Positions 45,189 to 45,917 of a DNA stretch of 64,000 nucleotides are shown here, piece by piece. Every line of letters starts with the position of its first letter. Position 1 is the stretch's first letter. Under the pieces are notes generated by a model. The model was not told the DNA's origin, ran no database searches, and worked only from the letters and a program-made list of their open reading frames with translations. Source of the DNA: Chlorobiaceae bacterium (lineage in GTDB: Bacteria; Bacteroidota; Chlorobiia; Chlorobiales; Chlorobiaceae); assembly GCA_013335115.1 (NCBI GenBank), contig JAAXWQ010000002.1, forward strand, positions 62,001 to 126,000, written 5' to 3'. The translations under genes were made by a program, and so were the position numbers.

Positions 45189-45431
45189 TCAGCTCTTCTT
45201 GACGTTCGACGCGTGGATCGGGAACTCACGCTCGATAATCGTGCCCTGCGGGCTCGCCTGCGTCGGGCGCATATGGCGCTTCCTGATGTTCACTCCCTCG
45301 ACGATGACGCGGCCTTTCTGCGGCAGGACCTTGAGGACCTTGCCGGACTTGCCTTTATCGTTACCGCTGATCACGACGACAGAATCATTCTTCTTGACGT
45401 GGAGCTTGATCTTTTTGATACCTGTTTTCAT
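45189..45431 (-). CDS. rplX: 50S ribosomal protein L24
   Basis: An 80-residue KOW-domain protein that starts 50S assembly. The motif is [29 protein letters not shown]. It is the first protein gene after the embedded tRNA-Gly; its ATG lies 32 bases from the tRNA 3' end. Confidence 0.96.
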
Positions 45432-45463
45432 GGTGGACCTGTGTGATATTATTCATATTCCAG

Positions 45464-45536
45464 AGCGGGAGACGGGACTCGAACCCGCGACCAACAGCTT
45501 GGAAGGCTGTGACTCTACCAGCTGAGTTACTCCCGC
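45464..45536 (-). tRNA. tRNA-Gly (anticodon TCC) embedded in the spc operon
   Basis: On the minus strand the 73 bases fold as a full cloverleaf. The acceptor is GCGGGAG/CTCCCGC with discriminator T, the D-arm contains CAGCTGGTAGAG, the anticodon loop is CTTCCAA with anticodon TCC, and the T-arm is GCGGGTTCGAGTCCCGT. CCA is not encoded. It starts 12 bases after the rplN stop and ends 32 bases before rplX, in the same direction, with no terminator or evident promoter between. It is therefore probably processed out of the ribosomal-protein transcript. Confidence 0.95.
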
Positions 45537-45548
45537 TTGTCCCGCCCC

Positions 45549-45917
45549 TCAGAGAACTTCGGGTGCGAGAGAAACGATTTTCATATACCTCTTGTCGCGC
45601 AACTCGCGTGCCACGGGCCCGAAGATACGGGTACCCCTTGGCTCGCCCTGGGCGTTCAGGAGGACGACGGCATTCTCGTCGAACCTGATGTAGGAACCGT
45701 CTTTGCGCTTCTGCTCTTTCACGCAGCGGACGACGACGGCCTTGCAGACATCTTTCTTCTTCACGATGCCGCCGGGAACCGCAGCCTTGACCGATACCAT
45801 GATCTGGTCGCCAAGCGCGGCATAACGCCTTCCGGTGCCGCCGAACACGTGGATACAACGAACTTTCTTGGCTCCGCTATTATCGGCAACTGCCAGATTA
45901 GTCTCTTTCTGGATCAT
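45549..45917 (-). CDS. rplN: 50S ribosomal protein L14
   Basis: A 122-residue protein at the subunit interface. It begins [39 protein letters not shown] and [26 protein letters not shown] are the family blocks. It ends only 12 bases before the tRNA-Gly. Confidence 0.97.

Follow-up and report, generated by a model that had tools for sequence, protein, structure and literature searches.

An apparently relocated tRNA-Gly(UCC) gene between rplN and rplX in Chlorobiales, and its probable excision from ribosomal-protein mRNA

Operons that mix tRNA genes with protein-coding genes are already known. In Salmonella and E. coli the tufB operon, thrU-tyrU-glyT-thrT-tufB, joins tRNAs to a translation protein and includes glyT, the orthologue of the tRNA-Gly(UCC) gene considered here; in that operon the tRNAs are grouped at the front and transcribed from a promoter of their own, whereas in the present locus glyT stands alone between two ribosomal-protein genes (PMC6134099). 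In Salmonella, glyT is predicted to encode the only tRNA that reads GGA, and the gene is probably essential (PMC6134099). In the secE operon, tRNA-Trp is found with rpmG and secE, likewise among translation and secretion genes and in the same conserved operon supercluster, but this is another tRNA in another place, outside the S10-spc array (PMC8046335). A parallel for the consequences comes from mitochondria, where tRNA excision parts the flanking mRNAs of a long transcript (PMC8437803, PMC5474008), as is predicted here. Mitochondrial punctuation is genome-wide, however, and uses RNase P and RNase Z, whereas the present case concerns a single bacterial site where excision is a prediction and no RNase Z was found.

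No earlier description of the rplN-tRNA-Gly-rplX version of a mixed operon was found in the open-access literature. Few bacterial gene orders are as well conserved as the S10-spc array. With an essential tRNA placed within the array, making that tRNA would unavoidably cleave the mRNA, and the locus is a natural experiment on internal processing: how much of it a ribosomal-protein operon can tolerate, or put to use.

The stretch of DNA analysed, here called the window, is 64,000 nucleotides long and comes from a Chlorobiaceae bacterium. On one strand it carries the order rpsC-rplP-rpmC-rpsQ-rplN-(tRNA)-rplX-rplE-rpsN-rpsH (Table 1). The rplN stop TGA occupies 45549-45551 and the rplX start ATG 45431-45429, both on the minus strand. 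The earlier note had put a tRNA-Gly(UCC) gene at this boundary with gaps of 12 and 32 nt, and the coordinates, ARAGORN and Rfam all agree with that placement. ARAGORN and Rfam RF00005 also give a canonical tRNA fold with a UCC anticodon. The gene does not encode CCA; its 3' end reads ...CTCCCGC-T, followed by CTGG. That the tRNA runs in the direction of rplN and rplX with no terminator of its own, as the same note had it, is borne out by the coordinates and by a scan that detected no terminator-like site in the 32-nt gap. By the E. coli convention rplN is the first gene of the spc operon. A cut at the tRNA would fall after rplN, one gene inside the spc block and not at the S10/spc border, so the proposed division into S10-side and spc-side messages is displaced by one gene.

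Table 1. The tRNA-Gly(UCC) gene and its neighbours (positions in the window)
Feature	Position	Strand	Basis
rplN (ribosomal protein L14)	45549..45917	-	ORF; Chlorobiaceae homologues at 92-100% identity
12-nt spacer, rplN stop to tRNA position 1	45537..45548	-	sequence; RNase P cut predicted at 3' edge
tRNA-Gly(UCC) gene	45464..45536	-	ARAGORN; Rfam RF00005, 68.2 bits, E 1e-12
32-nt spacer, tRNA to rplX	45432..45463	-	alignments; terminator scan
rplX (ribosomal protein L24)	45189..45431	-	ORF; homologues

Across the lineage the arrangement is fixed. A strong match to the tRNA was obtained in 85 of 98 genomes of the order, and rplN was likewise found in 85; since the 13 genomes without a tRNA match are the same ones that lack rplN, that stretch is most likely missing from them. 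Where both genes are present the tRNA directly follows rplN in 84 of 85 cases (44 inspected in sequence, rplX included, and the other 40 placed by their coordinates relative to rplN). The rplN-tRNA gap is 9-13 nt in Chlorobiaceae, which is also the range in the 40 coordinate-checked genomes. Spacer lengths and sequences vary widely between families. A second, named collection contributed 68 loci with the rplN-tRNA order, among them Chlorobaculum thiosulfatiphilum, Chlorobium ferrooxidans, Chlorobium phaeovibrioides and Ca. Thermochlorobacter aerophilum. No tRNA was present at rplN/rplX in 12 loci of that collection, mostly Ignavibacteria, nor in the rplN-rplX interval of the phylum outgroup genomes examined. 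The question whether other Chlorobi share the position is thereby answered for three families. One genome, G042, has a 163-nt rplN-tRNA spacer (locus L067) in which the intact copy is preceded by a second, tandem one that is truncated and degenerate and includes the upstream flank; this indicates local duplication and decay.

The sole exception in the order, G039 of family f4, points to the origin of the gene. There tRNA-Gly(UCC) is still part of a tufB-type cluster, and in most other Bacteroidota sampled it lies in a cluster of the form Thr(UGU)-Tyr-Gly(UCC)-Thr(GGU)-(tuf)-Trp, the layout already described for the tufB operon of Gammaproteobacteria (PMC6134099, PMC8046335). The cluster in the window's genome reads Thr(UGU)-Tyr-Thr(GGU)-Trp, with no Gly and with 18 nt between Tyr and Thr (L106, G000:C23:46831-47186), and the same Gly-less gap occurs in nine relatives from the three families. 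Against copies that still lie in the cluster, among them those of G039 and G052, the operon tRNA shows 92-99% identity, and its orthology to the cluster Gly gene holds, the cluster slot being empty where the spc copy exists. Because the cluster has been retained minus Gly in the window's genome and these nine relatives, a single move of the gene into the rplN/rplX boundary is most likely, and in the simplest history it took place before the three families split. Such a relocation would be a clean lineage marker, grouping three Chlorobiales families and leaving out a fourth. The Gly-less cluster of the window's genome also lacks tuf. G039 lacks tuf there too yet keeps Gly, so the loss of tuf may have preceded the departure of Gly.

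The operon copy appears to be the only one of its kind. The genome (2.1 Mb, 99.6% complete) has 43 tRNA genes in a set made up of Rfam tRNA matches plus retrieved sequence stretches, and their Gly anticodons are GCC (two genes), CCC (one) and UCC (one, the operon copy). With one UCC gene found among the 43, the suggestion that this is the sole tRNA-Gly(UCC) gene holds, which makes it the sole dedicated reader of GGA.

The transcription signals of this genome were modelled on its leading tRNAs, which have sigma-70-like TTGnnn-N15-19-TATATT sites upstream. A two-block promoter model was trained on 27 of them and scored by leave-one-out, with a median near 10; it is a small consensus model, and it gives low scores to a few of the other leading tRNAs as well. 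Over the 90 nt that precede tRNA-Gly(UCC) the best score is 2.5, against 1.8 (sd 3.0) in coding stretches of the operon, and no promoter-like site was detected. Among 18 Chlorobaculum genomes no upstream site exceeds 5.7, whereas a few Chlorobium genomes score 7-11 upstream of the tRNA, two of them 10.6-11.2. Synonymous positions at the 3' end of rplN are as variable as in the rest of the gene, with no excess conservation. A promoter hidden in the rplN 3' end was thus rejected for the window's genus by both the promoter model and the synonymous-site test. A Bacteroidetes-type TAnnTTTG motif was also sought upstream; it is absent in the window, and something like it is present in one sister-family genus. 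In Chlorobiaceae no terminator was found 3' of the tRNA. No Chlorobaculum transcript-start data were found in the open-access literature.

A different picture is seen in a genus of a sister family, g3 (loci L057, L070, L071 and L078). Sites of the form TTG-N16/17-TATYTT, with scores of 10.5-11.9, occur in its 77-82-nt spacers together with a leader hairpin whose stem sequences differ, and after the tRNA there is a long hairpin followed by T5. From these motifs the tRNA in g3 would seem to be a separate unit set within the operon. The mechanism is therefore not uniform, and a linkage to the mRNA cannot hold order-wide. Collinear genes with neither promoter nor terminator between them, the mark of a mixed tRNA-mRNA operon, are found in the window and its genus and not in g3. 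The view that the tRNA has no separate promoter and terminator accordingly stands for the window's genus (score 2.5, no terminator) and fails for g3, where both types of signal occur.

For the window's genus, the reading that is quite likely correct is that a relocated tRNA without signals of its own is made within the ribosomal-protein transcript and excised by RNase P and a 3' nuclease. An essential tRNA whose sole copy lies in an operon, with no identifiable promoter or terminator of its own, is most economically explained by co-transcription followed by excision; a transcript across the boundary, the cuts and the 3' route are what we infer from this. After moving from a tufB-type cluster to the rplN/rplX boundary in the ancestor of the three families, the tRNA would be transcribed as an internal piece of the ribosomal-protein message. 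RNase P would free its 5' end, 12 nt past the rplN stop. On the 3' side RNase E/G or another endonuclease would probably cut first, in the A+U-rich spacer, after which trimming would follow and the CCA enzyme would complete the CCA end. Given co-transcription, maturation of the tRNA entails a cut of the mRNA between rplN and rplX, so that each tRNA made would mean one such cut, and the supply of tRNA-Gly(UCC) would track ribosomal-protein transcription.

The window's genome has a gene for RNase P RNA (214.7 bits) and one for RNase E/G (573 bits). RNase Z (TIGR02651) has no match there and none above the curated cut-off in the 98 genomes of the order, while 14 of 14 control genomes match. Sub-threshold matches occur in about a third of the 98, and some of these may be divergent relatives. 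Since RNase Z was not found, tRNA punctuation would need a different 3' route. For RNase PH the window's genome has only weak matches, all within one 738-aa ORF that is probably PNPase. A C is present at position 74 in all 41 distinct tRNA genes checked in this genome, and CCA is encoded in 11 of the 41. The outgroup tRNAs sampled (L069-L093) also have C at position 74, so genomes that lack RNase Z are not alone in having this feature. RNA-seq of Propionibacterium acnes, a bacterium with no obvious RNase Z, placed the cleavage between the first and the second C of CCA (PMC3848588), a possible parallel, by analogy, for 3' maturation in Chlorobiales.

The 32-nt spacer downstream of the tRNA is A+U-rich, with a core, ATGAATAAYATCAYA / ATGAATAAYATCATA, that is conserved in alignments of Chlorobiaceae, and it holds an AGGT ribosome-binding-like site. 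By analogy with E. coli pre-tRNAs (PMC3985628) it is plausibly a region for RNase E; alternatively it simply belongs to the translation start of rplX. In most Chlorobiaceae the core includes a weak TATGA/TCATA inverted repeat. As a hairpin this was discarded: its five pairs are kept in most Chlorobiaceae and broken in several Chlorobaculum, and its predicted energy is weak. A short upstream ORF in the spacer (ATGAATAAT...) was also discarded, its ATG being absent from several genomes.

What excision would do to the message can be read in two ways, which are alternatives on the consequence and both lie inside the co-transcription and excision reading; the rival explanations are not all mutually exclusive. 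The first, which we consider moderately probable, is that the tRNA is co-transcribed and excised but merely hitch-hikes, its position having no regulatory role and the two mRNA halves behaving as if it were absent. The wide divergence of spacer lengths and sequences among families suits neutrality, as does the duplication and decay in G042. Conservation of the tRNA-rplX spacer within Chlorobiaceae counts the other way, indicating some selection on the junction, though perhaps only for rplX translation.

The second, put forward in the earlier note, is that obligatory excision acts as regulatory punctuation, setting a separate stability or stoichiometry for the messages that run through rplN and those that start from rplX. 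Li and Altman reportedly found in 2003 that RNase P cleavage affects polycistronic operon mRNAs in E. coli, and the position of the tRNA is fixed in three families. A conserved position alone, however, is no proof of regulation, since an essential gene with no copy left at its old site should remain where it is in any case, and in g3, where the tRNA has signals of its own, excision seems not to be obligatory. This reading is unlikely. A more specific form for Chlorobiaceae is improbable: tRNA maturation would be a built-in cut through which the supply of tRNA-Gly, and the capacity to process it, are tied to the relative amounts and lifetimes of the two mRNA halves, with an RNase Z-independent 3' cut beside the encoded C74.

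It is also rather improbable that the tRNA is made mostly from a promoter of its own in the rplN 3' end, with minor operon read-through and an operon mRNA that is rarely cut: the promoter-like sites and terminator-like hairpin of g3 and the two high-scoring Chlorobium genomes speak for it, but all 18 Chlorobaculum genomes and the window's genome score low, conservation at the rplN end is ordinary and Chlorobiaceae have no terminator past the tRNA.

Elsewhere in the array, a scan with the promoter model gave sites above 9 upstream of rpsL (55771, 55875), before rpsM (39051) and inside rplB (49044). The count is 10 against 3-7 by chance, only about twofold, and the sites are candidate promoters. 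A strong terminator-like hairpin followed by T6 lies between tuf and rpsJ at 51373-51350, just ahead of the S10 genes; it could be a terminator or an attenuator.
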